A DNA stretch of 64,000 nucleotides from Desulfobaculum xiamenense (GTDB taxonomy: Bacteria > Desulfobacterota > Desulfovibrionia > Desulfovibrionales > Desulfovibrionaceae): assembly GCF_011927665.1 (NCBI RefSeq), contig NZ_JAATJA010000003.1:124001-188000 (forward strand). Direction: 5' to 3'. The notes under the pieces were generated by a model, which saw only the letters and a program-made list of their open reading frames with translations, ran no database searches and was not told the origin of the DNA. Both the position numbers and the translations under genes were made by a program. Shown here piece after piece: positions 13,599 to 28,041 of the stretch (the first letter of the stretch is position 1; each line of letters opens with the position of its first letter).

Positions 13599-15248
13599 AT
13601 GACAAAGCTGACCGCACGATCCTACGACGAGTTTCTAAAGAGCTTCCGTCTGGAAGTTCCCGAGCACTTCAACTTCGCCTACGACGTCCTCGACACCATC
13701 GCCAAGGACGATCCCCGGCGCAAGGCCATCATCCACGTCGGTCCCGACGGCGTCCGCCGCGAGTACGACTTCGACTGGCTGGCCCGCTCGTCCGCCCGCC
13801 TCGCCAACGCGCTCGCCGAACGCGGCGTCCGCAAAGGCGACAGGATCATGCTCATTCTCTTCCGCCGCATCGAGTTCTGGGTCACCATGATGGCCCTGCA
13901 TCGTCTCGGCGCGGTGGCCATCCCCTCGCCCCACCTGCTCACGGTGAAGGACATCGCCTACCGCGTGCAGGCAGGGCACGTTCGCGGTTGCATCTGCGAA
14001 GACTCCGTGGCGCACACCGTCCACGAGGCCCGCGAGCAGTGCTCGGACTTCGATCTGCTCATCCAGTGCGGACCGGGCCAGATGCTCCCCGGCTGGCAGC
14101 ACTTCGACCACATCTGCGCCACCGCCGCAGACAGCTTCCCCCGCCCGGCCGACTACGCGGGCGGCAACGATCCGTTGCTCATCTTCTTCTCCTCCGGAAC
14201 CACCGGGAACCCGAAGATGGTCGAGCATCGTCACACTTACGCCATCGGCCACTACATCACCGGCACCTACTGGCACAACCTCGAACCCGGCGACGTCCAC
14301 CTCACAGTGGCCGACACCGGCTGGGGCAAGGCCGTATGGGGCAAGATGTACGGTCAGTGGATGGCCGGTGCCACCGTCTTCGTCTACGACTTCCGTGGCA
14401 AATTCGACCCCGCGGCGCTCCTGTCCGTCATGGCCCACGAGGGCGTGACCACCTTCTGCGCGCCGCCCACGGTCTACCGCTTCCTCATCCGGCAGGACCT
14501 CTCGAAGTACGATCTATCAAAGCTTCGCTACTGCACCACCGCAGGCGAGCTGCTCAACACCAGCGTCTTCGACGACTGGAAGAAGGCCACCGGTCTCTCC
14601 ATCCGCGAGGGCTACGGCCAGACCGAAACCACGCTCCAGATTGCCACGTTCTCGTTCATGGAGCCGAAACCCGGTTCCATCGGCAAGCCCGTGCCCGGCT
14701 GGGACATCGTGCTCCTCGATCACGACGGCAATCCCTGCTCCACCGGCGAGGAAGGCGAAATCTGCGTACGCCTGCGCGATGACGCCCCCGTCATCGGCCT
14801 GTTCAACGAATACGTCGACGAACCGGAAAAGACCGCCGCGGCCAAGTGCAACGGCTTCTACCACACCGGCGACAAGGCGTGGATGGACGAGGACGGCTAC
14901 TTCTGGTTCCTCGGCCGCGTGGACGACCTCATCAAGAGCTCCGGCTACCGCATCGGACCCTTCGAGGTCGAAAGCGCCCTCATCTCGCATCCCGCCGTGG
15001 TCGAGGCCGCAGTGACCGGCGTTCCGGACCCCGTGCGCGGACAGGCCGTCAAGGCCACCATCGTCCTCTCGCACGACGTCGAAGGCACGCCCGAACTGGC
15101 CAAGGAGCTCCAGAACCACGTCAAGAAGGTCACCGCGCCCTACAAGTACCCGCGCATCATCGAATTCGTCGATGAACTGCCGAAGACCATCTCCGGCAAG
15201 ATCAAGCGCGCCGAGATCCGCAAACGCGACTTGCAGGCCGCAGACTAG
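13599..15248 (+). CDS. AMP-forming acyl-CoA synthetase, MACS type (pair 2)
   Basis: 549 residues of the ANL superfamily, closer to medium-chain acyl-CoA (MACS)/acetyl-CoA synthetases than to ligase 1. A3 motif FFSSGTTGNPKMVEH, the MACS-typical VADTGWGKAVWGKMYGQW, A5 GYGQTETT, A7 YHTGDKAWMDEDGY, A8 GRVDDLIKSSGYRIGPFEVE, and the A10 lysine in KTISGKIKRAEIR are complete. TGAGG lies 11 bases before the ATG. A strong terminator follows. The differing families of ligases 1 and 2 argue that the two pairs handle different acids. Confidence 0.92.
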   Translation: MTKLTARSYDEFLKSFRLEVPEHFNFAYDVLDTIAKDDPRRKAIIHVGPDGVRREYDFDWLARSSARLANALAERGVRKGDRIMLILFRRIEFWVTMMALHRLGAVAIPSPHLLTVKDIAYRVQAGHVRGCICEDSVAHTVHEAREQCSDFDLLIQCGPGQMLPGWQHFDHICATAADSFPRPADYAGGNDPLLIFFSSGTTGNPKMVEHRHTYAIGHYITGTYWHNLEPGDVHLTVADTGWGKAVWGKMYGQWMAGATVFVYDFRGKFDPAALLSVMAHEGVTTFCAPPTVYRFLIRQDLSKYDLSKLRYCTTAGELLNTSVFDDWKKATGLSIREGYGQTETTLQIATFSFMEPKPGSIGKPVPGWDIVLLDHDGNPCSTGEEGEICVRLRDDAPVIGLFNEYVDEPEKTAAAKCNGFYHTGDKAWMDEDGYFWFLGRVDDLIKSSGYRIGPFEVESALISHPAVVEAAVTGVPDPVRGQAVKATIVLSHDVEGTPELAKELQNHVKKVTAPYKYPRIIEFVDELPKTISGKIKRAEIRKRDLQAAD

Positions 15249-15270
15249 ACCCGCTGTCCACTCATGCACA

Positions 15271-15304
15271 AAAAGCGGCGCGAAACGTGTTTCGCGCCGC
15301 TTTT
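15271..15304 (+). terminator. Terminator after ligase 2
   Basis: 15-bp perfect stem (AAAAGCGGCGCGAAA / TTTCGCGCCGCTTTT) with CGTG loop, then more T residues. Located 22 bases after the stop codon. Confidence 0.92.
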
Positions 15305-15366
15305 CCTTTTTCAGACCTTGCAGTATGGTCCGGCACCCGAAGATCCACCTTCGCACGCAAACGGCC

Positions 15367-16380
15367 ATGACAGACAACGACATCTACGAGCTTATCCGCA
15401 GAAATCAGGATATACAGAGGAAATTCTTCGAAATCGAAACGGAGATCCTCACCGTCCTCGACTTCACGAGCCTCTTCGTGCGGCTGCTCAATCTCATGCG
15501 CAACCGCTGCAACGTCCCCTACGCCTGGATATCCCTCATCGCAGACAGTGACGCCGCCGCCCTCGTGCGCACGCTGGCCAATGCCGAGGACCTCGACGGA
15601 CAGCTCAACACCATCGACCGCGACACCTTCCTCGACATCACTCGCGGACGCATGACACCCGTCCTGCGCAATCAGGGCCTCGCCCCGTTCACCGCCCTCT
15701 ACCCCGAGCCGCGCCCCGCCGACGTGCGCTCCATCGCCGTCGCCCCCATCACGCTCGACGGCGCGCTCATTGGCAGCCTCAATCAGGCCGACACATCCCC
15801 AACCCGCTTCGCCCCGGACATGAACACCGACCTGCTCGCCCAGCTCGCGGTCAAGGTTTCGCTGTGCCTGTCCAACGTCACCGCACACGAGCGCCTGCGC
15901 ATGCTCGCCACCTGCGACCCGCTCACCTCGCTCCTCAACCGCCGCGCCATGGACCAGCGCCTGCGCACCGAATACGCCCGCGCCAAGCGCTACGACTCGC
16001 CCCTGTCCATCGTCTTCATCGACCTCGACGACTTCAAAACCGTCAACGACACCCTCGGGCACGATGCAGGCGACAGGCTCCTCGCCTTCTTCGCCAAACA
16101 GATCGCCGCCATGGTCCGCACCACCGACACCTGCGCACGCTACGCAGGCGACGAATTCGTCATCATCCTCCCGGAAACCACCGCCACGCAGACCCACCGC
16201 TTCATGACCCGCGCCGCCGCGCAACTCGCCGATACGCCCGTCCCCGGCATAGAAACCGCCGTACGCTTCAGCTTCGGCGTCGCCGAAGCCCACGAATCAG
16301 GCGTCACAGACCACGCCTCCCTCCTGCGCCTCGCAGACCAGCGCCTCTACAACGACAAGCGCTCCAAGAACATCCGCTAA
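15367..16380 (+). CDS. DUF484-GGDEF diguanylate cyclase
   Basis: 337 residues, cytoplasmic. The N-terminus (IYELIRRNQDIQRKFFEIETEIL, then LFVRLLNLMRNRCNVPYAWISL) is a DUF484/GAF-like sensor domain of about 165 residues. The C-terminus is a GGDEF domain with SIVFIDLDDFKTVNDTLGHDAGD. The signature is YAGDEF, i.e. Ala replaces the first Gly; some AGDEF proteins are active, so activity is plausible but not certain. An RxxD inhibitory site (RTTD) lies five residues before it. The ATG at 15367 is chosen because the DUF484 homology begins there; 15325 is an in-frame alternative and neither has a clear ribosome site. The repeat element starts 14 bases after the stop. Confidence 0.88.
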   Translation: MTDNDIYELIRRNQDIQRKFFEIETEILTVLDFTSLFVRLLNLMRNRCNVPYAWISLIADSDAAALVRTLANAEDLDGQLNTIDRDTFLDITRGRMTPVLRNQGLAPFTALYPEPRPADVRSIAVAPITLDGALIGSLNQADTSPTRFAPDMNTDLLAQLAVKVSLCLSNVTAHERLRMLATCDPLTSLLNRRAMDQRLRTEYARAKRYDSPLSIVFIDLDDFKTVNDTLGHDAGDRLLAFFAKQIAAMVRTTDTCARYAGDEFVIILPETTATQTHRFMTRAAAQLADTPVPGIETAVRFSFGVAEAHESGVTDHASLLRLADQRLYNDKRSKNIR

Positions 16381-16393
16381 TCCCAAGGCCCGA

Positions 16394-16436
16394 CCGTATC
16401 GTTCACTGCCCCATGCGAGCCGTAGGCTCCGCTGGC
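16394..16436 (+). repeat. Truncated 5' copy of the structured repeat
   Basis: Repeats the first segment of the full element: CCGTATCGTTC, eight variable bases, then ATGCGAGCCGTAGGCTCCG. The same boxes recur 55 bases further on at the head of the diverged copy. Nothing resembling the later stem-loops follows. Confidence 0.8.
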
Positions 16437-16448
16437 GCTGTGGCCCGA

Positions 16449-16648
16449 CCGTATCGTTCGTTTCTCCATGCGAGACGTAGGCTCCGCCGGCCTAGGGGCC
16501 GCTGGCCCCTAGGAACCCCGATTTGTGATAACCGTGGGTGCCCTTGGCGCACCGCACGGCTTTGCGCAACGAAGCCCTAGTGAGGATTGTCAAGGAAATC
16601 ATTTCCTTGACTGGGGTCCGGGGCAAAGCCCCGGCCGCCGGAGGCCAT
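16449..16648 (+). repeat. Structured repeat, diverged copy 3
   Basis: About 200 bases in the same order as the two copies near 24 kb but in opposite orientation. From 5': box CCGTATCGTTC, the GTAGGCTCCGCCGG box, stem CCTAGGGGCC-GCT-GGCCCCTAGG, a GGCTT/AAGCC stem, stem GTCAAGGAAA-TCA-TTTCCTTGAC, stem CCGGGGC-AAA-GCCCCGG, end box GCCGCCGGAGGC. It fills the gap between the 3' ends of two convergent GGDEF genes. Compared with copy 1 the stems differ by paired changes. Confidence 0.88.
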
Positions 16649-16668
16649 GCCCGCGCAGCGGCTTGGCA

Positions 16669-19626
16669 TCAGGACGACGCGGAGCGAACTTCGGCGGAAT
16701 CCGGGTGGAGGAAGGATGGGATGCGATCGGCTGGCATGGGTTTGCCGAAGAGGTGCCCCTGCACGTAGGGGCATTGGAACTGATGAAGAATTTCGGCCTG
16801 CGTACGCCGCAGCACTCCCGACGCGACGCCGCACACGCCAATGTTGCGGGTGAGGTCCACTATGGACCGCACAAGGGCGCAGACCTCGGCGTCCTGATCG
16901 ATGCGTGCGACGAGACCGCTGTGAATGCGGATGGCATCGAGCCGGAACTGAAGCAGGTGCGAGAGTGACGACATGCCGGAACCGTAGTCGATAAGCGCGA
17001 TACCTACGCCAAGCTCGCGCAACTTGCCGAGCAGGGCCGTTGACGTTGCGAGGTTGTGCATGAGCACACTCTCGGGAATTTCGAGAATGACGAGACGTGG
17101 CGGGACGCCCGTGGCGTGGAGCACGTCCCGGATATCCGCGGGGAGCGTGGGCTGCATGAACTGCCGCGCCGAAAGGATGATGCCGACCGGCATGTCGAGT
17201 CCACACCGTTCGTGCCAGTCATGAATCTGCTCGCAAACATGGCGCATCATCCACTCGCCCATGGGCAGGATGAGTCCGGTGTCCTCGGCAAGTGAGAGGA
17301 AATCCCGGGGGGAAAGCAGCCCCAGTTCGGTGTGCCGCCAACGTATGCGCGCCTCCAGCGCCCGCACGGTCCCCGTGTCCATAGCGACGATGGGCTGATA
17401 GTGGATTTCAAAACCGTCATGCTCGACGGCCTGCCGCAGATCGTTTTCCATCTGCATCTGCCGGAGTGCCTGATCATGCATCTTCTGGTTGAAGACCTTG
17501 AAGTGCCCCTTTCCGAGTTCCTTAGCGCGGTACATGGCGGTATCCGCGTCGCGCAGGATATCTTCCGCGCTGTCGTAGTCCTCGGTAAGCAGGACGATGC
17601 CGATGCTTGCGGCGGTGAGCACTTCGCATCCGCCGAGGATGACCGGCCTGCGAATCTCGTCGAGAATGCGCTTGGCGATCTTGATGCATTCGCGGGGGTC
17701 GATAATGTCCTCAATAAGCACCGCGAATTCGTCGCCACCGAAACGCGAAACGGTATCCACGTCGCGCACGCAGCGGGTCAGCGTCTGCGAGACGTGACAC
17801 AACAGCAGGTCGCCCACGTTGTGACCAAGACTGTCGTTGATGATCTTGAAGCGGTCGAGGTCCATGTACAAGACGGAGAAGAGATAGCCCGGAGACCGCC
17901 GCGTGCGCTTCATGGCCATTTCGAGATGGTTGAGGAACAGGCTGCGATTCGGAAGCGCGGTGAGCGGATCGTGGAATGCACGGTGCTTGAGCGCGGCCTC
18001 GGATTCGCGACGTTCGGTGATATCCTCCACGGACCCTTCGAAATGCACGGCGTTGCCATGCTCGTCGCGAATGGCGCGGGCATTGAGCGAGACCCAGATG
18101 ACGCGCCCGTCGCGACGCATGGCGCGCGAGTGGTGATTGCGCACCTCGCCATTAGCCCGCAGCGTGACGAGAAATTCCTGCGCGCTTTCGACATCGAGGC
18201 GGGAATTACCCACAAGCTGGTCGCATGCGGCCAGCAGTTCATCCGGCGAATCGTAGCCGAATATCCTCGCGAGGGCGGGGTTGGCCTCAGTGCAGGTTCC
18301 GTCCGGCGTAATGCGGAATATGCCCTCGACGGCGTTCTCGAAGATGAGGCGATAGTTGGCCTCGGCTGCCACAAGGGCGCGTTCGGCCTCCTTGCGCTCC
18401 GCGATTTCGCCAACGAGCTGCCGGTTAACGCGCTCAAGGCGCGCCGTGCGGTCGCGGACGCGGTCCTCCAGCCTGTCGCGCGCCTCACGCAGTTGCTCTT
18501 CCACAAATTTACGTTCCGTGATGTCGCGCACGATGATGACGTAGTTCCGTTCATCCCCGCGCTGAACGGAGGCGATGGAGATTTCCACGGGAAATTCGAG
18601 ATCGCCCACCGAGGCGGGAAGTTCCACCGTACGATGCTCGATGGGCTGTGCGTCGGGCTCGGCGGCATCCAGCCCGGCCATGTGCAGCACATCGGCGAGG
18701 GACGTACCGAGAAGATCGTCGATACTCCGCCCCACCGCATCTGCAGCATCGAGGGCAAAGATGTCGAGCAGTGCGGGATTGAAACGCAGGAGTCGTCCGC
18801 TTTCGTTGGTGACCATGAGACCGTCGGCCATGCTGTTGACGATGGCCGACACAGTGGACAGCGTGGTGGAGAGCTCTTCGGTGGCCTCGGCGACGGAGCG
18901 TTCGAGCCGCGTGATGAGGCTCGCCAGTTCCTCGGCGGTGGATCGCACGGCATGGGCGACATCGCCAACCTCGTCATCGAAGCGGATGTCGATGGTGGCC
19001 GTAAAGTCGTGCGCGGCGACGCGGCGGGCGTACTCCATAAGCTGGATGAGCGGACGCGAGATCGTGCCCATGAACAGCCATGCGGCCACTGCGCAGATGA
19101 AGAAGAACCCGAGGGTCAAAATCTGGTGGTTGATAACGGAATCGCGGATGAGCCCGAGAACGCCACTGCGGTTCATGCCGATGTGCACGTTGCCCGCCTC
19201 GCCCGCCAACACGGGATAAGTGACGTGCAGGAAGGACCCACCCGGCCCGGTGTTGAGCGTCTGCACCACGGGCTGGCGCAGGCCTTGACCTTCCCGCACC
19301 GCATGGCGGATGGCGGGCGGAATGGCGGGCGCGAAGGTGTGGGCCAGCACTTCTCCCCGAGCATTGGCCACGAGGACATAGGAAATGCCCTTGATCTCCA
19401 TGCAGGTGTCGATGGCGGCCTGAATGGCGGTGGCGTCGCCGTCGAGAATCAACTCCACATTGGCCCCGGCGATGGATTCGGCAATGGCCAGCGCCTTGTC
19501 CTCGTGCTCCGCCGTCATGAGGGTGCTGAGCTGCCACGCGGAATATCCGCCGGACACGGCCGCCAGCACGCCAAACGCGACGAGCATGAAAATGAGCGCC
19601 TTGGAGAACAGGCGAACGCGCCTCAT
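16669..19626 (-). CDS. Membrane PAS-GGDEF protein with degenerate EAL domain
   Basis: 985 residues. A first membrane helix (about 6-30), a periplasmic sensor domain, a second helix (about 170-188), HAMP, two PAS domains (about 260-370 and 420-540), GGDEF (about 550-700), and a C-terminal EAL-like domain (about 735-970). The cyclase motif RFGGDEF is intact and has an RxxD inhibitory site (RDVD), so c-di-GMP synthesis is expected. The EAL domain has EAR for EAL, ILSARQF for the usual NLS, IDYGSG for DDFGTG, IRIH for LKID and ASGVL for AEGVE, so it should not hydrolyse c-di-GMP. The start overlaps the stop of the binding-protein gene as ATGA, with GAGGGG upstream, so the two are translationally coupled. 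Confidence 0.92.
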   Translation of the reverse strand: MRRVRLFSKALIFMLVAFGVLAAVSGGYSAWQLSTLMTAEHEDKALAIAESIAGANVELILDGDATAIQAAIDTCMEIKGISYVLVANARGEVLAHTFAPAIPPAIRHAVREGQGLRQPVVQTLNTGPGGSFLHVTYPVLAGEAGNVHIGMNRSGVLGLIRDSVINHQILTLGFFFICAVAAWLFMGTISRPLIQLMEYARRVAAHDFTATIDIRFDDEVGDVAHAVRSTAEELASLITRLERSVAEATEELSTTLSTVSAIVNSMADGLMVTNESGRLLRFNPALLDIFALDAADAVGRSIDDLLGTSLADVLHMAGLDAAEPDAQPIEHRTVELPASVGDLEFPVEISIASVQRGDERNYVIIVRDITERKFVEEQLREARDRLEDRVRDRTARLERVNRQLVGEIAERKEAERALVAAEANYRLIFENAVEGIFRITPDGTCTEANPALARIFGYDSPDELLAACDQLVGNSRLDVESAQEFLVTLRANGEVRNHHSRAMRRDGRVIWVSLNARAIRDEHGNAVHFEGSVEDITERRESEAALKHRAFHDPLTALPNRSLFLNHLEMAMKRTRRSPGYLFSVLYMDLDRFKIINDSLGHNVGDLLLCHVSQTLTRCVRDVDTVSRFGGDEFAVLIEDIIDPRECIKIAKRILDEIRRPVILGGCEVLTAASIGIVLLTEDYDSAEDILRDADTAMYRAKELGKGHFKVFNQKMHDQALRQMQMENDLRQAVEHDGFEIHYQPIVAMDTGTVRALEARIRWRHTELGLLSPRDFLSLAEDTGLILPMGEWMMRHVCEQIHDWHERCGLDMPVGIILSARQFMQPTLPADIRDVLHATGVPPRLVILEIPESVLMHNLATSTALLGKLRELGVGIALIDYGSGMSSLSHLLQFRLDAIRIHSGLVARIDQDAEVCALVRSIVDLTRNIGVCGVASGVLRRTQAEILHQFQCPYVQGHLFGKPMPADRIPSFLHPDSAEVRSASS

Positions 19627-20861
19627 GGCTGCCACCCCTCAATGGTATCGACGGGAACGAATCTGCGGTCACGGATGGCGGTAAGCGTCACCGAGGACAG
19701 GGCCTGATGCTTGGTACGCGCGAAGGACAGCGGCACGCCTATGCCGAGGTCGATGGCATGCATGGATTCAAACGCATGAGCGAGCGCCGCACGCGAAGGA
19801 TTCGCGCCCGAGCGCAGCAGTCCCTCCACCAGCAGACGCGCGCTCAGGTAGGCTTCGAAGCTGGCGAAGCTGTACAGCGGCGGAACATAGTTGTCCTTGG
19901 CCAAGACGCCGGGCGGCAGCGGTGCGCCGGACTCCATGAGCTCGCGATACTCTCGTACGGCAGGCAGGCTGGTGTCCTCGTAACTCGGCACGACCTGCGA
20001 GATGACCACCCCGCGCGACATGTCGCGGCCGTGGGCGCGGCTGGCCTCGGTCAGCAGTTCCTCAAGACGTTCGCTGTTGGCGAACGAGACGCAGCCAATG
20101 GGACCGATGAATCCGGAAAGGCGGGCATCGCGAATGAACCCCGCGCATGGCCCGGAAGTTCCGACGGCGACGATGGCGTCCGGATTGCTGCGCATGATGA
20201 TGTGCGCCTGCTCGATCATGGAGGCCTCAAACGGCTCACCCCTGCGGTAGCTCGCCTCCCCGGCGAGAGAAAGGCCGTGGCGGAACAAGGCGCGACGCGC
20301 GCCGTCCCAGCCGTTTCTGCCGAAGGCGTCCGCCTGATAGAAGACAGCAATGCGCCTGCGTCCGGAGTTCACGAGGCTGTCGATCAGCGCGTCGAGTTCG
20401 CCGAAGTAGGAGGTTCGCAGGTTGAAGACGCTGGATTCGTAGGGTCTGGTGCGAATAGACATAGTGCCCGTCACGGGGAACAGGAGCAGCAGGCCGCGAT
20501 CCTGATAGCGCCGCAGCAGCGGCAACATGCGCGTGACCGTCGGCGTGCCCACGTAGCCGAACAGGGCGAAGACGCGTTGGTTCTCCACCAGTTCCACCGT
20601 ATTGGTGATAGCGGGCACAGGGGCGTAGCCGTCGTCCATGGCGCACAATTCGATGCGCCTACCGTGGACGCCACCCAGCTCATTGACCCTGTCCAGATAG
20701 GCGGCAGCGCCGCGATAAGTCTCAATGCCGAGAGCGCGGGCCGAACCGGTGAACGCGGCGGACATGCCGATGCGGATGGGTTCCGCACTCCACGCGCAAA
20801 GGGCCTGCAGCACTACAACCGCAAGCGTCAGCGCCAGAGCATGTGCCATGCGGCGATTCAT
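19623..20861 (-). CDS. Periplasmic binding protein (Peripla_BP_6 type) coupled to a GGDEF protein
   Basis: 412 residues. Sec signal MNRRMAHALALTLAVV to an ACAWSAEP-like cleavage region. The mature part starts IRIGMSAAFTGSARALG and follows the branched-chain amino-acid binding fold (ELGGVHGRRIELCAMDDGY, FALFGYVGTPTVTRMLPLL, IAVFYQADAFGRNG). The ATG at 20861 has CCGGAGAA. No ABC permease or ATPase genes are near. The stop overlaps the GGDEF/EAL start by four bases, so this protein most likely feeds a ligand signal to the periplasmic domain of that cyclase rather than to a transporter (inference). The ligand cannot be read from the sequence. Confidence 0.85.
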   Translation of the reverse strand: MNRRMAHALALTLAVVVLQALCAWSAEPIRIGMSAAFTGSARALGIETYRGAAAYLDRVNELGGVHGRRIELCAMDDGYAPVPAITNTVELVENQRVFALFGYVGTPTVTRMLPLLRRYQDRGLLLLFPVTGTMSIRTRPYESSVFNLRTSYFGELDALIDSLVNSGRRRIAVFYQADAFGRNGWDGARRALFRHGLSLAGEASYRRGEPFEASMIEQAHIIMRSNPDAIVAVGTSGPCAGFIRDARLSGFIGPIGCVSFANSERLEELLTEASRAHGRDMSRGVVISQVVPSYEDTSLPAVREYRELMESGAPLPPGVLAKDNYVPPLYSFASFEAYLSARLLVEGLLRSGANPSRAALAHAFESMHAIDLGIGVPLSFARTKHQALSSVTLTAIRDRRFVPVDTIEGWQP

Positions 20862-21010
20862 GCGTTCTCCGGATAGGGATGTGACTGGGTGTCGTGACCT
20901 CGTACCAGATGTTTCGAAAATTCTCAACATCATTGGTCGATTGCATGCATTTCTCGCCTTGCGGTCCGAGTTCTGGTAGCATGTGAAACCGAAGCTCCCG
21001 CAGACCGTCC

Positions 21011-22108
21011 ATGACCTCGACCCCATCGGAGAACATGAACAGACGACGTTTTCTCGCCACCCTCTGCGCCACCGCCGGGCTCGGCCTCGCGGCCCCTGCA
21101 CTGGCCGCCACCGCTGGCCGTACGCGCTGGCGCATGGCGCTGGCCTGGACCAGCGACATGGAACTGTTCAAGGCCGGGGCGTTCCGTTTCGCGCGGCAGG
21201 TTTCACTGCTCACCGAAAGCCGCCTCGCCGTCGATGTCAACGTCGCCTCCCCGAGCATGCCTCCCCTGTCCGTTCTGGACAGGGTCGCCTCGGGCGAAGT
21301 CGAATGCGCGCACGTCTTCACGTCCTACTGGGCGGACAGACACCCCGCCCTGCACTGGTTCACCGGCATTCCCTTCGGGCTCGACGCGGCAGGCACCAAC
21401 GTGTGGCTATACAAGGGCGGCGGCGCACAGGCCCTTCGCAAGGCGTGTCTCGATCTCGGCGTCTACGCCATGCCCATGGGCGACACCGGCGGCAGCGGCT
21501 TCGGCTGGATGCGCCGCGTCCCGGAAACCCCGGACGAGCTGCGAGGCCTGTGCCTGCCAGCATGGGGCCTTGCCGGGAGCGTTCTCGCACGGGCCGGAGC
21601 CACGGTCACCGAACATCCACAAATTTCAGGCCCGGACATCGCTGCGGAACTCGCGGCCGGGCGCATCGACGGCGCATGGTGGCACGGGCCGCACCACGAA
21701 TGCCTTCTCGGCATGGACCGCCATGCAAGCGCATACTGTTCCCCGGGCTGGCAGAACAGGGCCGGGCGCATGGTCCTCATCATCAATCGCAAGGCCTACG
21801 ACGCCGTACCGCCGGTCATCCGCCGCATCGTGGATGCCTGCGCCATGCAGGAGGACATGCGCCTGCAATGCGACTTCCGGACGGCCAACGCGCAGGCCAT
21901 GGCCGCGTGTGTCGCCGCGCGCCCGGATGTGCGGCGGACGCTTTCCAATCCCATTGTCGAACACTTGCGGGAAATCGCGCGGGATGTCATCGCGGAGGTC
22001 TCGGGCAGCGATGCCGAACTCCGGCGGCTGGCCGAGGAGTATCATTCGGTTCAGGAACGTCTTGGCGGCCTGCGCGAGGTCGCCATGGCTGCCCCAGGTG
22101 GGGCGTGA
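21011..22108 (+). CDS. TRAP-type (DctP family) substrate-binding protein, orphan
   Basis: 365 residues with a Tat-like leader (NRRRFLATLCATAGLGLAAP). The body is of the DctP fold: WRMALAWTSDMELFKAGAFRFA, GEVECAHVFTSYWADRHPALHWF, IPFGLDAAGTNVWLY, and MVLIINRKAYDAVPP. The YWADRHPAL segment resembles binding proteins for 2-oxoacids (TakP type), but the ligand is not proven. No TRAP membrane genes (DctQ/DctM) are in the window, so partners must be elsewhere or the protein is a sensor. An ATG at 21035 would also keep the Tat motif; its GGAGA site is too close (2 bases). Followed after 28 bases by the hydroxyacid dehydrogenase gene. Confidence 0.82.
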   Translation: MTSTPSENMNRRRFLATLCATAGLGLAAPALAATAGRTRWRMALAWTSDMELFKAGAFRFARQVSLLTESRLAVDVNVASPSMPPLSVLDRVASGEVECAHVFTSYWADRHPALHWFTGIPFGLDAAGTNVWLYKGGGAQALRKACLDLGVYAMPMGDTGGSGFGWMRRVPETPDELRGLCLPAWGLAGSVLARAGATVTEHPQISGPDIAAELAAGRIDGAWWHGPHHECLLGMDRHASAYCSPGWQNRAGRMVLIINRKAYDAVPPVIRRIVDACAMQEDMRLQCDFRTANAQAMAACVAARPDVRRTLSNPIVEHLREIARDVIAEVSGSDAELRRLAEEYHSVQERLGGLREVAMAAPGGA

Positions 22109-22136
22109 GGGAATCCATTCAGGAAAGGATGAATCA

Positions 22137-23111
22137 ATGAAGATTGTCGTGCTCGATGGCCATACACTCAATCCCGGCGACAACCCGTGGGTGCCGCTTG
22201 AGGAACTCGGCGACGTGACCGTATACCCCCGCACGGCAACCGAGGACATCGTCCCCCGTGCGCAGGACGCCGAAATCGTGCTCGTCAACAAAACGCCGCT
22301 GACGGCCGAAACGCTCTCCCAACTGCCCAATCTGCGCTACATCGGCGTGCTGGCCACCGGGTTCGACGTGGTCGATCTCGAAGCGGCCGGACGCCGAGGC
22401 ATCCCCGTCTGCAACGTGCCCGGATACGCCACCAACGCCGTGGCGCAATACGTCTTCGCCATGATTCTCGAACTCGATCACCACATCCGCGACCACGACG
22501 CAAGCGTCAAGGCCGGGCTGTGGGCCGCCAGCGAGGACTGGTGCTTCTGGAACACCCCGCAGATCGAACTGACCGGGCAGACGATGGGCATCATCGGCTT
22601 CGGAGCCATCGGCAGCCGGGTGAGCGAGCTCGCCCACGCCTTCGGGATGAAGGTGCTGGCCTGCACCCGCACGCCCAAGCCGGTGCCCGACTACGCGCCC
22701 TTCAGCTACGCATCAATCGAGGAAGTCTTCGAACAGGCCGACGTGATCAGCCTGCACTGCCCGCTGACCGCAGACAACGAACGCTTCGTCAATGCGGACC
22801 TGCTCTCGCGCATGAAGCCCGAGGCGCTATTCATCAACACCGCCCGCGGACGACTCGTGGACGAGCACGCCCTCGCGGCGGCCCTTGCGGCGGGGAAACT
22901 GCGCGGCGCGGCCCTCGACGTCGTGTCGGCCGAACCCATCTCCTCGGACAATCCTCTGCTTTCCGCGCCGGGGTGCATCCTCACTCCGCACATCGCATGG
23001 GCCTCCCTGACCGCCCGGCAGAATCTCATGCGTCAGGCCGGTGCAAACGTCCGCGCCTATCTGGCGGGACGTCCGGCCAACGTCGTCAACGACACGTGGC
23101 TCGCCCGCTGA
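22137..23111 (+). CDS. D-2-hydroxyacid dehydrogenase (glycerate dehydrogenase-like)
   Basis: 324 residues. NAD(H)-dependent reduction of 2-oxoacids such as hydroxypyruvate to D-hydroxyacids. Substrate half (1-100, 290-324) and nucleotide half (100-290): IGVLATGFDVVDLEAA, then Rossmann GIIGFGAIGSRV, catalytic Arg in FINTARGRLVDEHAL, Glu in DVVSAEP, and His in LTPHIAWAS. The HIAWAS form is typical of glycerate dehydrogenase/hydroxypyruvate reductase. The ATG at 22137 is preceded by AGGAAAGGA; the longer open frame upstream overlaps the binding-protein gene. Probably an operon with that gene, which may deliver a related oxoacid. Terminator 22 bases downstream. Confidence 0.92.
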   Translation: MKIVVLDGHTLNPGDNPWVPLEELGDVTVYPRTATEDIVPRAQDAEIVLVNKTPLTAETLSQLPNLRYIGVLATGFDVVDLEAAGRRGIPVCNVPGYATNAVAQYVFAMILELDHHIRDHDASVKAGLWAASEDWCFWNTPQIELTGQTMGIIGFGAIGSRVSELAHAFGMKVLACTRTPKPVPDYAPFSYASIEEVFEQADVISLHCPLTADNERFVNADLLSRMKPEALFINTARGRLVDEHALAAALAAGKLRGAALDVVSAEPISSDNPLLSAPGCILTPHIAWASLTARQNLMRQAGANVRAYLAGRPANVVNDTWLAR

Positions 23112-23133
23112 CCGCACGCACTCCCACGACAAA

Positions 23134-23159
23134 AAAGCCCCCGCCAAGGCGGGGGCTTT
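23134..23159 (+). terminator. Terminator after hydroxyacid dehydrogenase (bidirectional)
   Basis: AAAGCCCCCG / CGGGGGCTTT stem with CCAAGG loop, preceded by further A residues, so it can also terminate the minus-strand VanZ transcript. Confidence 0.88.
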
Positions 23160-23185
23160 CGCTTTTCTTCAGCACGCGGAGCGCA

Positions 23186-23596
23186 TCACGCGCGGTGCGC
23201 GTCGTTCATGAGCGGTTCAAGCAGGCGCAACCGCAGCACGAACCCCAGCAATCCGCCAAGCGTCAGCCCAAGCATGTTGGCCGACGCATCCGCTAACGAG
23301 CAACGCCGATTGGGAATGAAGGTTTGCCAGAATTCGAGGGAAAATCCCATCAGCAACAGTGCGAAAAGCGCTCCCACCGCCACGGCGCGTGTGCGAAATG
23401 CTGGCGGCGTCACCGTGGCCAGCATGGCGAATGCCAAAAAATGCAGCGCATTGTCGAGCGACACGCGCATGAACAGCCTTCGATACGGCGGCATGAACCC
23501 CGAGAACAAGCTCACGCAGACCAACGTGACGAGGCCGATGGCGAGCAGCAGAAGGAATGTCCGACGTACGGCGTCGGCGTCGCTGCGGTCTTCCAT
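23186..23596 (-). CDS. VanZ-like membrane protein
   Basis: 136 residues with about four membrane helices (15-35, 50-65, 70-90, 108-128). Matches the VanZ family by SLDNALHFLAFAML in the second helix and EFWQTFIPNRRCSLADASANMLG before the last. The family is linked to teicoplanin resistance in one operon, but most members are uncharacterised membrane proteins. The 54-aa membrane protein gene lies directly upstream (3 bases), so the two are an operon. Confidence 0.85.
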   Translation of the reverse strand: MEDRSDADAVRRTFLLLLAIGLVTLVCVSLFSGFMPPYRRLFMRVSLDNALHFLAFAMLATVTPPAFRTRAVAVGALFALLLMGFSLEFWQTFIPNRRCSLADASANMLGLTLGGLLGFVLRLRLLEPLMNDAHRA

Positions 23597-23599
23597 GGA

Positions 23600-23764
23600 C
23601 TACCGGTTCCTCTTGCGCGTGACGAGATAACGGGTCAGCCCGGCCAGCAGGCCGCCGCCAGCGCCGAGGAAAAACGCCCGTGGCGGATCCATGTGCAGCA
23701 CGAACGTGGCGATGACGCCAAGCGCCCCACCGATCAGAATGCCACGGAATATCGCTTCCTTCAT
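23600..23764 (-). CDS. Small membrane protein, 54 aa
   Basis: Not recognised by name. 54 residues with two short hydrophobic segments (about 7-22 and 29-45) and a basic C-terminus TRKRNR, so probably a two-helix inner-membrane protein with a cytoplasmic tail. AGGAG precedes the ATG at 23764. The frame stays open far upstream, but that part lies in the repeat DNA and is not coding. The VanZ gene follows at 3 bases. Confidence 0.75.
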   Translation of the reverse strand: MKEAIFRGILIGGALGVIATFVLHMDPPRAFFLGAGGGLLAGLTRYLVTRKRNR

Positions 23765-23874
23765 GAGTATCTCCTGAATTGCCGGTTGCGGTTGCCCAGC
23801 ACGATACCCGTTTGCGCCCCCTTTCGGAAGAGGGAAAGTGCCGCGCCGTGCCTTGGGCCTATGGCTCCCCACCC

Positions 23875-24086
23875 CGCTACGCGAAAGTTCGCCTCCGGCG
23901 GCCGGGGCCAGCCCCGGACCCCGGTCAAGGGGCTGACCCCCTTGACAATCCTCATTAGGGCTTCGTCGCGCAAAGCCGCACGCCCCGCCATGGGCACCCA
24001 CGCCCATCGCATATCGGGGGTCCAGGGGGCCAGCGGCCCCTTGGCCGGCGGAGCCTACGGCTTGCATGTGGCAATGATCGATACGC
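23875..24086 (-). repeat. Structured repeat, copy 1
   Basis: About 210 bases, read on the minus strand; tandem with copy 2 at a period of exactly 230 bases. By eye, 195 aligned bases (23872-24066 against 24102-24296) differ at about 11 positions. Order: CGTATCG box, GTAGGCTCCGCCGGCC box, stem CCAAGGGGCC-GCT-GGCCCCCTGG, GGCTT/AAGCC stem, stem GTCAAGGGG/CCCCTTGAC, stem CCGGGGC/GCCCCGG, and the end palindrome GCGAAAGTTCGC. Three overlapping minus-strand open frames here and in copy 2 are by-products of the repeat. Confidence 0.92.
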
Positions 24087-24105
24087 CCTGCCACAGCGAC
24101 AACCC

Positions 24106-24316
24106 GCTACGCGAAAGTTCGCCTCTGACGGCCGGGGCCAGCCCAGGACTCCGGTCAAGGGGCTGACCTCCTTGGCAATCCTCACTAGGGCTTCGTCGCG
24201 CAAAGCCGCACGCCCCGCCATGGGCACACACATCCATCGCATATCGGGGGTCCAGGGGGCCAGCGGCCCCTTGGCCGGCGGAGCCTACGGCTTGCATTCA
24301 GCTAGGAACGATACGG
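24106..24316 (-). repeat. Structured repeat, copy 2, running into a gene 3' end
   Basis: Second tandem copy. Its 5' boxes (CCGTATCGTTC, then ATGCAAGCCGTAGGCTCCG) overlap the end of the upstream glycosyltransferase gene. The TAG inside GCCGTAGGC is the stop codon of that gene. Some stem bases are decayed relative to copy 1 (for example GCCAAGGAGG against CCCCTTGAC). Confidence 0.92.
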
Positions 24317-25523
24317 CAAGCCACTGGCGGCAGGCCGCGGCGAGTCCGGCGTCACGCACGCGGTCGGCGGCATCGCAGACGGCCTGCATGCGCTTTCGCA
24401 GTGCAGCGGGATTGGCGAGAATGCGGAGGGCGCTCGCGACGCTCTCGCGGGCCGAGCGTTCGGCCACAGCGTCGCCGGATGCGGCGGCAACATCGGCAAG
24501 CGCCTCCAAGGCAGGAATGGAAGGCAGAAGAAAGGCCCGCAGAAACAGGATGTCCACAAGGCGCTCAGGCTCACCTTCGCGGCGCGCCGCCTCGGCGAAC
24601 AGCTCATAGCCTCGTTCCCACAGAGGGGCCGCGTCGAGGGCCTGTTCAAGTTCGGGAAGCGTGGCCGGTGCCACGGCGTCGAGAGCGTGCCGAGCGGATT
24701 CGGAAAGCGCGGCATGGGCGGCGCCCCAAGCGGTGAAACGCAGGGCGAAGCCGTCGCGCTCAAAGTGGCGATGCAAATCGGAACGCACCAGCGCGGCGCA
24801 GCGTTGACGGAAAAGCGCGGCGTTGGCGGTTTCGCGGTCGAAACGGCCGGGAGTCCGGCTCGTGTAGTGACCGATGCGGCTTTCGGGAACACAGGCGAGA
24901 CGCATCCCGCGCCGCCGCATGGAGAGGCAAAGGTCCATGTCCTCGTAACCATTGACGTAGCCCTCGTGAAAACCGCCGAGGTCACGAAAGAACTCGGTCG
25001 GCATCATGAGCGCAGCGGCGGAAAGCGCCTGCACCCGGCGCGCAGTGCACAGCACGGGATGAGTGGCTGGAAAGTATTCGTAGAGATGACAGGGGCGCAG
25101 GAACGGATCAAAGGCGATGCCGCAGTGCTGGACACGGCCGGAATTGGGATAGACCAGCAGCGGCGCGACGGCGGCGAGCCGGGCATCGAGTGAGAAGGCT
25201 TCGAGCAGTGGGGCCAGCCAGTCGGACTCGGGCACGGTATCGTTGTTCAAAAAGAACAGCATCGGACTGCGCGCATGGGCGGCGGCCCGGTTGCAGGAGA
25301 TGGCGAAGCCGGGATTGTCCTCGCTGCGAAGGTGGATGAAGTCATCGCCGAACAGCGCCCGCCCGAGGGCCGGAAGTTCGACGGGCGTCTCGTCGGTGGA
25401 GGCATTGTCCGCCACCACCACCTCAAGGGCGCGACCGGGGACCGAGGAGCGCAGGGCTTCGAGGCAGGCCCGCGTGAGCGCCCACTGCCCGTGAACGGGG
25501 ATACACACGCTGACCGCAGGCAT
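24285..25523 (-). CDS. Family 2 glycosyltransferase
   Basis: 412 residues. GT2 domain in the first 230: VSVCIPVHGQWALTRACLEAL, VVADNASTDET, LRSEDNPGFAISCNRAA, FLNNDTVPESDWLAPLL (DxD as NNDT), and GYVNGYEDMDLCLSMRRRG with the catalytic ED. It probably adds a sugar to a surface polymer or flagellin. The C-terminal 180 residues are helical and Ala-rich, without recognised domain. It starts 2 bases after the stop of the larger glycosyltransferase gene. The last ten residues (AVSFLAECKP) and the stop are encoded by the repeat, so the original C-terminus may have been replaced. The open frame continues upstream of 25523 but overlaps the other gene. Confidence 0.88.
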   Translation of the reverse strand: MPAVSVCIPVHGQWALTRACLEALRSSVPGRALEVVVADNASTDETPVELPALGRALFGDDFIHLRSEDNPGFAISCNRAAAHARSPMLFFLNNDTVPESDWLAPLLEAFSLDARLAAVAPLLVYPNSGRVQHCGIAFDPFLRPCHLYEYFPATHPVLCTARRVQALSAAALMMPTEFFRDLGGFHEGYVNGYEDMDLCLSMRRRGMRLACVPESRIGHYTSRTPGRFDRETANAALFRQRCAALVRSDLHRHFERDGFALRFTAWGAAHAALSESARHALDAVAPATLPELEQALDAAPLWERGYELFAEAARREGEPERLVDILFLRAFLLPSIPALEALADVAAASGDAVAERSARESVASALRILANPAALRKRMQAVCDAADRVRDAGLAAACRQWLAVSFLAECKP

Positions 25524-25525
25524 GC

Positions 25526-27922
25526 TCAGCCCTCCGCCAGCCGCCGGGCGACCGCGACCAATCGCCGCAGGACGCCATGCCCCGGCAAGCGGGTCTCGCA
25601 GGCCGCACACAGACGTTCGACGTCTGCGGCCCGGCCGTCGAGCAACATGACCTCGGCCATGGTGACGAAATTCTCCATCACATAGCCCGCGATGATGTCG
25701 GCGTAGAGCGATGCCTTGAACCGGCGTTGGATCGTGGCGAATTCGCGCACGCTCTCGGCGTTTCGCGAGACCGCACCGCTGTCGAGCCACGCAAGACCGG
25801 TGAACTCGCGCACGTTGCGCACCTCGCGCGAGCGCCCAACGCGCAGGAAGAAATCCTGATCCGCCACGCGCTGGTAGCGCTCGTCGAAGAGTCCCAACTC
25901 GTCGTGCAGGCTCCTTCGCCACAGTGGATGCGGCCCCACGGTCGGCTGCTCAAGGTTGTAGGCGAAGGAATAGTCCGGCCATTCCCAGTAGCCGCCGCTT
26001 TCCGCACTCGGGACATACTCGTCGAACGTGCCATGCGGTTGGCTGGTGAGCTTCGTGTTCCCGAAGGCAAGGGCGGTGGAGGGATGCTGCGCGAAGACGC
26101 CGAGCAGTATCTCGTACGCCGTGGATCGAAGCCTGTCGTTGGTGCTGAAGGGGGTGAGAGAGGTCCCCGAGGCGATGCGCACCGCCACATTCCACGCCTC
26201 ATAGACGCTGATGCGGCGCGGTGCGCGAAAAAGACGAATGTTGCCGAAGCGCCCACCGTATTCCCGCACGATGGCTCCTTCGTCCTCGGGCGAGGCCGCA
26301 TCCACCACCACGATCTCCAGCCGATCGGCCACACTCAGCCCTTCCAGATCGTCGAGGCATTCGCGCATGAAGGCCTCGGAGCAATAGGCCGAAACGATGG
26401 AGGTGACCTCGTACGGGCGAGAAATGTATCCGCATGGAATTTCGACACACTCGGCAATGAGCGCATCGGCCCGTGCGCCCTGCGCCTTGACGAGCCGCGC
26501 CAGAACCTCTGCGTCACGCGGGTACATGTCCAGCCGACGGGAGAGGACGTCCACGGCCCCGCCCCACGCCTCGCGTTCCATCATCATGTCGGCCAGCTCA
26601 AGCGAGGCGGTGCGCAGATGACGGTCGGCCTCCAGCGCACCGCGCAGCAGGCGTTCCGCCTCCGCAGCGTCGCCACGCCCACGAGCACGCTGCGCACGGC
26701 GGAGCAGAAGCCCACCGTGACGCGGGAACAGTGCGGCGAGGCGATCAATACTCGCGTCATCCAGTGACGCTGAAGACGCACATGCGGCCTGCGCCTCGGC
26801 AACGGCCAGTCCGTCCGCCGGGGCCGCCTCGATGTCCCGAATGTCCCACAGCCCCGGACCGGCAAGGGCGGCGGCATGGCGCGCATCGTCAAGGGCCAGC
26901 GCAGGCGGAACATGAAGCACGCAGCCCCCGCCAAGGCGAAGCGGCAGATGCGGAAGTGCCGGAAGCGGCATATCCGGCATATCCAACATATCGGGGCGGT
27001 CAATGCTCAGCATGGCGTGCGTGGGCCCAAGCGAAGACGCCCCCGTGGGCAGGCGGAGGTCATGGTTGGGCTTGCGCAGCCGCAACCGCTCAAGGGCTTC
27101 GCCGAGCAGTCGGGCGTACGGCGCATGGAGGCGCACCAGCGCATCGAAGGGAATGGCGTAGCGCGAATCGAGGCACGGCACGAGGATATCCGGTGCCATG
27201 AGCGCGGCCGCCCACATCCGCACGAGGGCGACGGGGGTGCTGCCCACACGAAGGGTTGCGGGGTCGTCGAGCGTCCCGTCGAAGGTTTGCGAAAACGTCC
27301 ACGGCGCAAGGACCGGCGCGTCGCACATCCGGGCGCACGCCGAGGGCGGCCCGAGGTGACCACCCGTGGCTGAGTCCGCACCAGATGCGAGCCATGACGC
27401 CAGAAAGCGGAAACCGTCCCGCCCACGACGCACGACCACGAGGCCCGGATCGAAGTCCTTGCCGCCGTCAGGGGCAAACGCCCGGGACAGGCACACCGCC
27501 CCGCCCTGCTCCGCCCTCAAGCGTTCCAACGCACAGGGGCACGGCAGGACGTCGCAGGAAAGATACGCCAGTTCGTCGATGTCCGGAAATGTGCCAAACA
27601 GCCAAAGCAACACGGCGGGGACGATGGTCGCGGCGGCTGGCTGCCCGCCACTGGGAAGCGTGACGACGCTAGCGTCCACCACGCGAAGTCCGGGCAGCGT
27701 AATGGAGTGGAACACATCCAGCGCCTCCTCTCCAGCACACACGGCAAGCGTCTCCGCGCTTGATGCGTCATGATGCCCGCGCAGCACATCAAGCAGGACA
27801 AGCGCCTGCGCGAGCGTGGCGTCATCGACGAACAGCACGCGACGAAACATCGCAGCCGCACCGCCAGCCGTGTGCTGCGCCGCGCCCATCACCGCCGCGT
27901 CGTTCACGGGTTCCCGCGTCAT
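25526..27922 (-). CDS. Large bifunctional glycosyltransferase (N-terminal GT-A, TPR, C-terminal GT2)
   Basis: 798 residues. The N-terminal 300 read as a GT8-like nucleotide-sugar fold: RRVLFVDDATLAQALVLLDVL, ELAYLSCDVLPCPCAL with an acidic metal site, and FDPGLVVVRRG. A middle section (about 400-500) has TPR-like helices (GGLLLRRAQRARGRGDAAEAERLL). The C-terminal 300 are GT2: VTSIVSAYCSEAFMRECLDDLEG, IVVVDAASPEDEG, PFSTNDRL, and WEWPDYSF. GGAGGTGCC ATG at 27922 is the best start; an ATG at 27955 lacks a site. Starts a two-gene operon with the next glycosyltransferase. It could glycosylate flagellin or LPS; no acceptor gene is near. Confidence 0.85.
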   Translation of the reverse strand: MTREPVNDAAVMGAAQHTAGGAAAMFRRVLFVDDATLAQALVLLDVLRGHHDASSAETLAVCAGEEALDVFHSITLPGLRVVDASVVTLPSGGQPAAATIVPAVLLWLFGTFPDIDELAYLSCDVLPCPCALERLRAEQGGAVCLSRAFAPDGGKDFDPGLVVVRRGRDGFRFLASWLASGADSATGGHLGPPSACARMCDAPVLAPWTFSQTFDGTLDDPATLRVGSTPVALVRMWAAALMAPDILVPCLDSRYAIPFDALVRLHAPYARLLGEALERLRLRKPNHDLRLPTGASSLGPTHAMLSIDRPDMLDMPDMPLPALPHLPLRLGGGCVLHVPPALALDDARHAAALAGPGLWDIRDIEAAPADGLAVAEAQAACASSASLDDASIDRLAALFPRHGGLLLRRAQRARGRGDAAEAERLLRGALEADRHLRTASLELADMMMEREAWGGAVDVLSRRLDMYPRDAEVLARLVKAQGARADALIAECVEIPCGYISRPYEVTSIVSAYCSEAFMRECLDDLEGLSVADRLEIVVVDAASPEDEGAIVREYGGRFGNIRLFRAPRRISVYEAWNVAVRIASGTSLTPFSTNDRLRSTAYEILLGVFAQHPSTALAFGNTKLTSQPHGTFDEYVPSAESGGYWEWPDYSFAYNLEQPTVGPHPLWRRSLHDELGLFDERYQRVADQDFFLRVGRSREVRNVREFTGLAWLDSGAVSRNAESVREFATIQRRFKASLYADIIAGYVMENFVTMAEVMLLDGRAADVERLCAACETRLPGHGVLRRLVAVARRLAEG

Positions 27923-28041
27923 GGCACCTCCGCATGAAGTCAGGGGTTTGGCCATGATACATCCGTGCGCGCATCAAGCGCAACCGGGCGAAAATCCATG
28001 CAGGTGCCGAGGTTTTCCACCGCGCACGTTCCCCGGCGGAC

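Follow-up and report, generated by a model that had tools for sequence, protein, structure and literature searches.

What kind of genetic element is the folded intergenic repeat of Desulfobaculum xiamenense, and what keeps its hairpins paired? The question is raised by a DNA stretch of 64,000 nucleotides (the window; contig NZ_JAATJA010000003.1, positions 124,001 to 188,000 of the forward strand), in which a structured repeat with compensatory base changes had been noted. We followed this repeat through the window, the whole genome (G000; 3.64 Mb in 8 contigs, the window being located on contig C3) and the genomes of relatives.

The repeat copies of the window

The original prediction of two tandem copies with a period of 230 bp was borne out, as was that of an inverted third copy, which shares 83% identity with copy 1 (Table 1). 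Copies 1 and 2 differ at 17 of 199 aligned bases. The previous estimate of about 11 differences in 195 bases was close to the 12 that are found when counting from position 23875. The tandem pair is located behind a glycosyltransferase gene, whose TAG stop codon lies inside copy 2. The setting of copy 3 (window positions 15172-19635) comprises a gene for a GGDEF protein and a convergent gene for a PAS-GGDEF-EAL protein.

When window positions 13599-27955 were compared with G001:C1:77-84 kb of a genome from the same genus (G001, about 70% DNA identity), both element sites were found at or near changes of the gene order. The gene for an AMP-binding enzyme lies on the opposite side and is inverted in G001 relative to the window. 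Repeat-mediated rearrangement is a possible cause of these changes.

Table 1. Positions of the repeat copies, their parts and adjoining features (window coordinates unless a genome or locus is named)
Feature	Position	Strand	Remarks
Repeat unit, copy 1	23889-24087	+	199 bp; covariance-model match G000:C3:147889-148087, 222 bits
Repeat unit, copy 2, in tandem with copy 1	24119-24317	+	Covariance-model match G000:C3:148119-148317, 208 bits
Repeat unit, copy 3, in inverted orientation, flanked by GGDEF and GGDEF-EAL genes that converge	16448-16647	-	Covariance-model match G000:C3:140448-140647, 221 bits
Copy 1, left module with hairpin 1 (GCCTCCGGCGGC-CGGGGC.CAG.CCCCG-GACCCC)	23891-23922	+	From sequence; diverged versions in other genera
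Copy 1, hairpin 2 (GTCAAGGGGCTGACCCCCTTGAC)	23924-23946	+	Covariation in 58-93 copies
Copy 2, hairpin 2, one further broken pair	24154-24176	+	From sequence
Copy 3, hairpin 2 (GTCAAGGAAATGATTTCCTTGAC, AAA/TTT arms)	16589-16611	-	From sequence
Copy 1, linker AATCCTCATTA and short central hairpin GGGCTT...AAAGCC	23947-23977	+	Linker ATCCTCA common to G001
Copy 1, hairpin 1' of the right, inverted module (CCAGGGGGCC AGC GGCCCCTTGG)	24022-24044	+	
Copy 2, hairpin 1'	24252-24274	+	
Copy 3, hairpin 1', A-T to T-A swap (CCTAGGGGCC...GGCCCCTAGG)	16491-16513	-	From sequence
Copy 1, right end with CTACG box (GTAG on the opposite strand)	24045-24087	+	CTACG in 78 of 93 copies
Spacer between copies 1 and 2 with CCGCTACGCG box	24088-24118	+	Box recurs ahead of many copies
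Glycosyltransferase gene (24285-25922, -): TAG stop codon, from CTA of copy 2	24285-24287	-	
Extra partial right-end copy adjoining copy 3	16387-16441	-	55-bp direct repeat, 82%
Larger G001 element	L219-L243, e.g. G001:C1:449894-450514		

Anatomy and predicted fold of the unit

The unit of about 200 bp consists of two inverted end modules that flank a structured spacer. In the consensus the left part starts with GCCTCCGGCGGC and hairpin 1 (CGGGGC.GCCCCG), followed by GACCCC and hairpin 2 (GTCAAGGnnn TGA nnnCCTTGAC). The middle contains AATCCTCACTA and then a short hairpin (GGGCTT..AAAGCC), and the right part comprises GGGGGTCC, hairpin 1' (AGGGGGCC AGC GGCCCCTT), GGCCGGCGGAGCC, TACG and, further on, GATACGG. 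The right part is an inverted copy of the left one that has diverged, as seen when it is read on the opposite strand (GGCTCCGCCGGCC-AAGGGGCC-GCT-GGCCCC-GGACCCC). The CTACG tag is found at the right end only; neither the left module nor the modules examined in other genera carry a constant GTAG/CGTC tag.

In the minimum-energy fold of the single-stranded DNA the unit forms one long hairpin, in which the end modules are paired with each other (z = -2.2). The unit is predicted to be one that can extrude as a single long hairpin or as several. Among the four stem-loops described previously, hairpins 2 and 1' are well supported; the set as such needs to be restated. The AGGGCTT...AAGCC hairpin, a short one, hardly varies.

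A family of about 95 copies

A BLAST search of the D. xiamenense genome yielded 45 matches to the repeat. A covariance model built from 58 copies yielded 106 matches, 96 of them with a score of at least 59 bits (range 59 to 234 bits). This match count and these scores are far above chance. The 96 (about 95) copies make up 75 arrays (57 single, 15 double and 3 triple), inside each of which the orientation is uniform with the copies placed head-to-tail. BLAST of 0.5 Mb around the arrays provided no additional copy. The mean divergence was 20% among all copies versus 9% between array mates, and for 26 of the 39 copies lying in arrays the nearest relative was the array mate. The small divergence between mates indicates that the tandems form locally, and the overall value that most copies are old rather than recent.

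Covariation of the hairpins

Compensatory changes had been proposed for two stems, and both were confirmed in the window: The GGG/CCC-type arms of hairpin 2 in copy 1 correspond to AAA/TTT in copy 3, and in hairpin 1' the arms CCAGGGGGCC/GGCCCCTTGG of copies 1 and 2 (A-T) become CCTAGGGGCC/GGCCCCTAGG in copy 3 (T-A). At its inner end hairpin 2 carries a C-C mismatch in copies 1 and 2, and in copy 2 it is also broken at CTTGGC.

Over the 58 copies, pairing was found in 97.9% of the cells of the named helices. The covariation score was 0.192 versus 0.072 in shuffled alignments, with none of 500 shuffles being as high, and reached at most 0.112 when the partners were slid. The bulk of the signal, about five pairs, stems from hairpin 2, where both sides changed in 16, 34 and 30 copies for columns 46-54, 47-53 and 48-52, respectively, and in 7 copies for the column pair 39-61. 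In a tree-based test with 93 copies, pairs 45-51 and 46-50 were above all 60 simulations. Significant pairs in columns 24-32 were discounted in this test as alignment artefacts of a hairpin-1 length variant, and columns 133-138 showed linked change of a non-pairing kind. For hairpin 1' a single pair was changed on both sides, such that its covariation is thin, and the other stems barely vary. The proposed covariation thus holds for hairpin 2 and only thinly for hairpin 1'.

The paired changes had been taken as selection for structure rather than neutral decay. Pairs do change together, from which selection does not follow. The hairpin arms swap in whole blocks (GGG/CCC, AAA/TTT, GCC/GGC, GTG/CAC), and such wholesale changes could equally be produced by palindrome-correcting template switching. 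We consider selection on the hairpin pairing likely but not proven. The mispairs give no signal of strand-specific RNA selection: Hairpin 2 contains 8 G-U versus 19 A-C, so that the sense RNA strand is not marked, and hairpin 1' carries in 52 of 93 copies a G-T pair, which would read as A-C in RNA transcribed from the right-hand gene.

Location behind genes

According to their neighbouring genes 38 arrays are convergent, 34 co-directional and 2 divergent, with one of the 75 lacking a called right-hand gene. Hence 72 of the 74 classified arrays lie behind a gene, about half of them between convergent genes. Ordinary neighbouring gene pairs in 20 sampled stretches (18 of them from contig C1) were convergent in 37, co-directional in 267 and divergent in 38 cases. 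The gene calls, obtained with a simple codon-usage model, are approximate: Two short genes left of the tandem array of the window were missed, and this array is listed as convergent when it is really co-directional. The orientation of the element had no clear tie to the gene direction.

A simple custom finder detected an intrinsic terminator, i.e. a GC-rich hairpin with a T-run, on neither strand of any of the 96 copies, which speaks against the element itself being such a terminator. At 20 of the 60 gene ends that offered room, a terminator sits between the stop codon and the element; part of the copies is therefore probably little transcribed.

Restriction to the origin half of the chromosome

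The arrays are distributed very unevenly over the contigs, with 3 in 1.76 Mb of C1, 49 in 1.16 Mb of C2, 13 in 0.27 Mb of C3 and 10 in 0.24 Mb of C4. The deficit on C1 is pronounced (3 of 75 arrays, p = 2e-17), and on C2 39 of the 49 arrays lie within the first 480 kb (p = 9e-8). On C1 the GC skew changes from plus to minus near 0.57 Mb in a terminus-like manner, and on C2 from minus to plus near 60-90 kb, with the DnaA gene at 90.9 kb. The origin is placed by GC skew and dnaA, and the bias is a contig-level one, the contigs being unordered. Taken together, counts, skew and dnaA place the copies densely near the inferred origin, while they are absent around the terminus: Close to the inferred origin there are about 8 arrays per 100 kb, compared with 0.17 per 100 kb on the terminus contig, whose density is more than 20-fold below that of the remaining contigs. 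In 360 kb sampled from C1 no copy of the repeat was found, despite the 37 convergent gene pairs that the sampled stretches (18 of 20 from C1) contain. Origin-proximal gene dosage seems too small for such a ratio. A second match to the DnaA C-terminal domain (75 bits) is present at G000:C2:990708-990905, at a distance of 0.9 Mb from the presumed dnaA.

No other repeat family was found to occupy the terminus half within the 360 kb; the C1 samples contain a single internally repeated stretch (L213:18936-19706), which apparently belongs to an RTX-like repetitive gene. The hairpin-2 type GCC-GTG-GGC is found in 10 of 23 copies on C1 and distal C2 and is rare elsewhere. The restriction to the origin half is strong, is the most surprising part of our results and is not what a specialist would expect. 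It is not a family-wide trait: Related modules had no clear origin bias in the genome G144 (Rayleigh p = 0.35) and a weak origin signal in G240 (p = 0.04), where the GC skew is ambiguous. The bias may thus be confined to the D. xiamenense lineage.

Versions of the element in relatives

A DNA search with the consensus found no full-length element in 59 relatives including G001. The 25-base middle box had no match in contigs of other species, in a search from which records of the own or very near genomes were perhaps excluded. With the covariance model G001 gave 80 matches. Its own element agrees in linkers and order (CCGGGGCCAGCCCCGG-ACCCCG-CGTAAGGGAATGATTCCCTTACG-TATCCTCA-hairpin 3), with different but matched arms. 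The 18-bp arms of hairpin 3 come in several versions, each perfectly matched (GTTTAAAAGCCGTGCAAG, ...CCCTGCAAG, ...CCGTGGAAG), besides which there is a second type (GTTTGAATTCC...). The unpaired linkers GACCCC and ATCCTCA are conserved between the species. In three convergent intervals both genomes carry their own version, that of G001 being a multi-hairpin element of about 450 bp that ends in an inverted module. For six gene pairs with the element in D. xiamenense, the G001 interval is without the repeat and 100-380 bp shorter, with flanks too diverged to place the boundaries.

Searching Desulfovibrionaceae genomes with a covariance model had been suggested as a check of the structure. In addition to a covariation above that of the shuffles and of the tree-based null, the outcome was positive, with weak matches to diverged modules in 124 of the 247 family genomes, which represent 30 of its 44 genera. 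The weak matches that were examined are mostly hairpin modules a few bases 3' of stop codons, often as an inverted pair, and some flank a terminator (L044, L110, L113, L115). Across genera the module order is constant while the arm sequences differ. The exact module pattern was found in records of Desulfovibrio, Bilophila and Solidesulfovibrio, with single stray matches elsewhere.

Comparison with known repeats

REP/BIME repeats are common in bacteria. The original description of the repeat as following REP/BIME logic at a larger size fits a unit with inverted end modules and a structured spacer that occurs in many copies, in tandem arrays and behind genes. REPs of the GTAG and CGTC super-families are units of 20-40 bp, one end of which carries a GTAG or CGTC tag; as dimers they form inverted palindromic modules, the spacers of which may hold stem-loops of their own, and are predominantly found near 3' ends, between genes that are convergent or co-directional, where a REP end can provide the TAG stop codon of the gene (PMC3733652). 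Most REP families in this survey by Di Nocera et al. (2013), which does not mention Desulfovibrio in its main text, are spread genome-wide (PMC3733652). Like the dimers, the D. xiamenense repeat is an inverted palindromic pair with a structured spacer at convergent and co-directional sites, and copy 2 supplies a stop codon. It shares with these REPs that it is a palindromic intergenic repeat in high copy number. In contrast to them its unit is about 200 bp long, the GTAG is present at the right end only and in part of the copies, the tag is not constant in the relatives examined, and the distribution is strongly origin-biased.

A REPIN consists of two inverted REPs that behave as one non-autonomous unit and fold into a single hairpin. 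The two inverted modules of the D. xiamenense repeat likewise fold into one long hairpin. Unlike for REPIN/RAYT systems, the genome contains no gene for a RAYT or other Y1 transposase: The RAYT (TnpA-REP) profile NF047646 had no match in G000, and the Y1_Tnp profile PF01797 had none in G000 or G001 with the positive controls working. A genome-encoded RAYT/Y1 mobiliser is thereby ruled out.

In E. coli, BIME-2 binds gyrase and gyrase cleavage sites are over-represented in BIME-2 (PMC6379681). Both BIME-2 and the D. xiamenense repeat are mosaics of inverted palindromes in arrays behind genes; their sequences differ, and the passages considered here report no regional bias of similar strength for BIME-2. 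In Rfam no family matched the window, either at gathering scores or in a relaxed search. The best match, RF02937 (Clostridiales-2, minus strand), has in common with the repeat a short GC-rich hairpin module; with 20.9 bits versus a gathering score of 58.6 it is sub-threshold, and the repeat is not a member. A search for carriage by a plasmid or phage gave no match. Among open-access papers we found no description of such a repeat in Desulfovibrio, and this REP/BIME-like family of the Desulfovibrionaceae is apparently undescribed in the searchable open-access literature.

What the repeat is and what keeps it paired

With moderate confidence we regard the repeat as a RAYT-less, BIME-like, non-autonomous DNA repeat that is tolerated behind genes and locally homogenised. 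A REP-dimer-like unit would have multiplied and been partly homogenised within one genome. Its spread may have relied on a mechanism that copies folded single-stranded DNA, for which the agent could be a transposase from another element, or recombination/gene conversion. Selection would remove insertions elsewhere, leaving those behind genes, and the hairpins would be kept because the copying step requires them. The copy number, the inverted modules, the covariation of hairpin 2, the restriction to the 3' side and the local tandems speak for such a repeat, as do the constant order of parts in relatives with different sequence and the sites occupied in one species only. Against it stand the lack of a mobilising enzyme in the RAYT and Y1_Tnp searches, insertion sites at which neither a target-site duplication nor an exact boundary was established, and the age of most copies; moreover, simple spread would not lead one to expect that the repeat is so strongly excluded from the terminus half.

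The position behind genes would also suit a 3'-end RNA element, which together with a role in chromosome topology is a main rival reading. Here each inverted module would be transcribed in the sense direction of the adjoining gene, such that hairpins at the ends of both convergent transcripts would stabilise the mRNA, impede 3' exonucleases or restrict read-through. In relatives the modules begin a few bases past stop codons, often ahead of a terminator, and their parts follow the same order from either side (L044, L110, L113, L115). We nevertheless consider this rather unlikely given the terminators that precede the element at a third of the gene ends with room, the lack of a terminator within it, mispair counts that do not favour the sense strand and an orientation without clear tie to gene direction. 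The family as a small structured RNA gene in many copies is highly improbable: The covariation and the weak likeness to Clostridiales-2 agree with it, but there is no Rfam match at gathering scores, both orientations relative to the flanking genes occur, the copies form tandem arrays and close relatives differ largely.

The distribution along the chromosome, with the depleted and in its samples empty terminus contig and half of the arrays between convergent genes, would suit a candidate site for gyrase or a nucleoid protein that is needed mostly origin-proximally. By analogy with BIME-2 and its gyrase cleavage sites such a role in chromosome topology is conceivable; the missing bias in G144 and its weakness in G240 count against it, and we hold it to be improbable. 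The paired changes, finally, may reflect mutation rather than selection, if template switching corrects quasi-palindromes in a neutrally decaying repeat. Block-wise arm changes, the 18-bp arms in G001 and the few G-U and A-C intermediates without bias to one RNA strand agree with this. The conservation of the non-pairing linkers between species and the persistence of the hairpin order across genera with different arm sequences argue against it and make it distinctly improbable.

Significance

To one further idea we give little probability: The folded repeat of the origin half could be a domain or topology mark, for which each lineage rebuilds new but matched hairpin arms. If true, it would be a structural code, and not a sequence, that evolves in concert. 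The family bears on two questions, by what means REP/BIME repeats can multiply in the absence of a RAYT and what preserves the pairing of their hairpins. About 95 copies, a same-genus relative with arms of its own, weak matches from 30 genera and a density that drops more than 20-fold towards the terminus contig make both questions testable, by comparison of strains and by mapping proteins on the chromosome.
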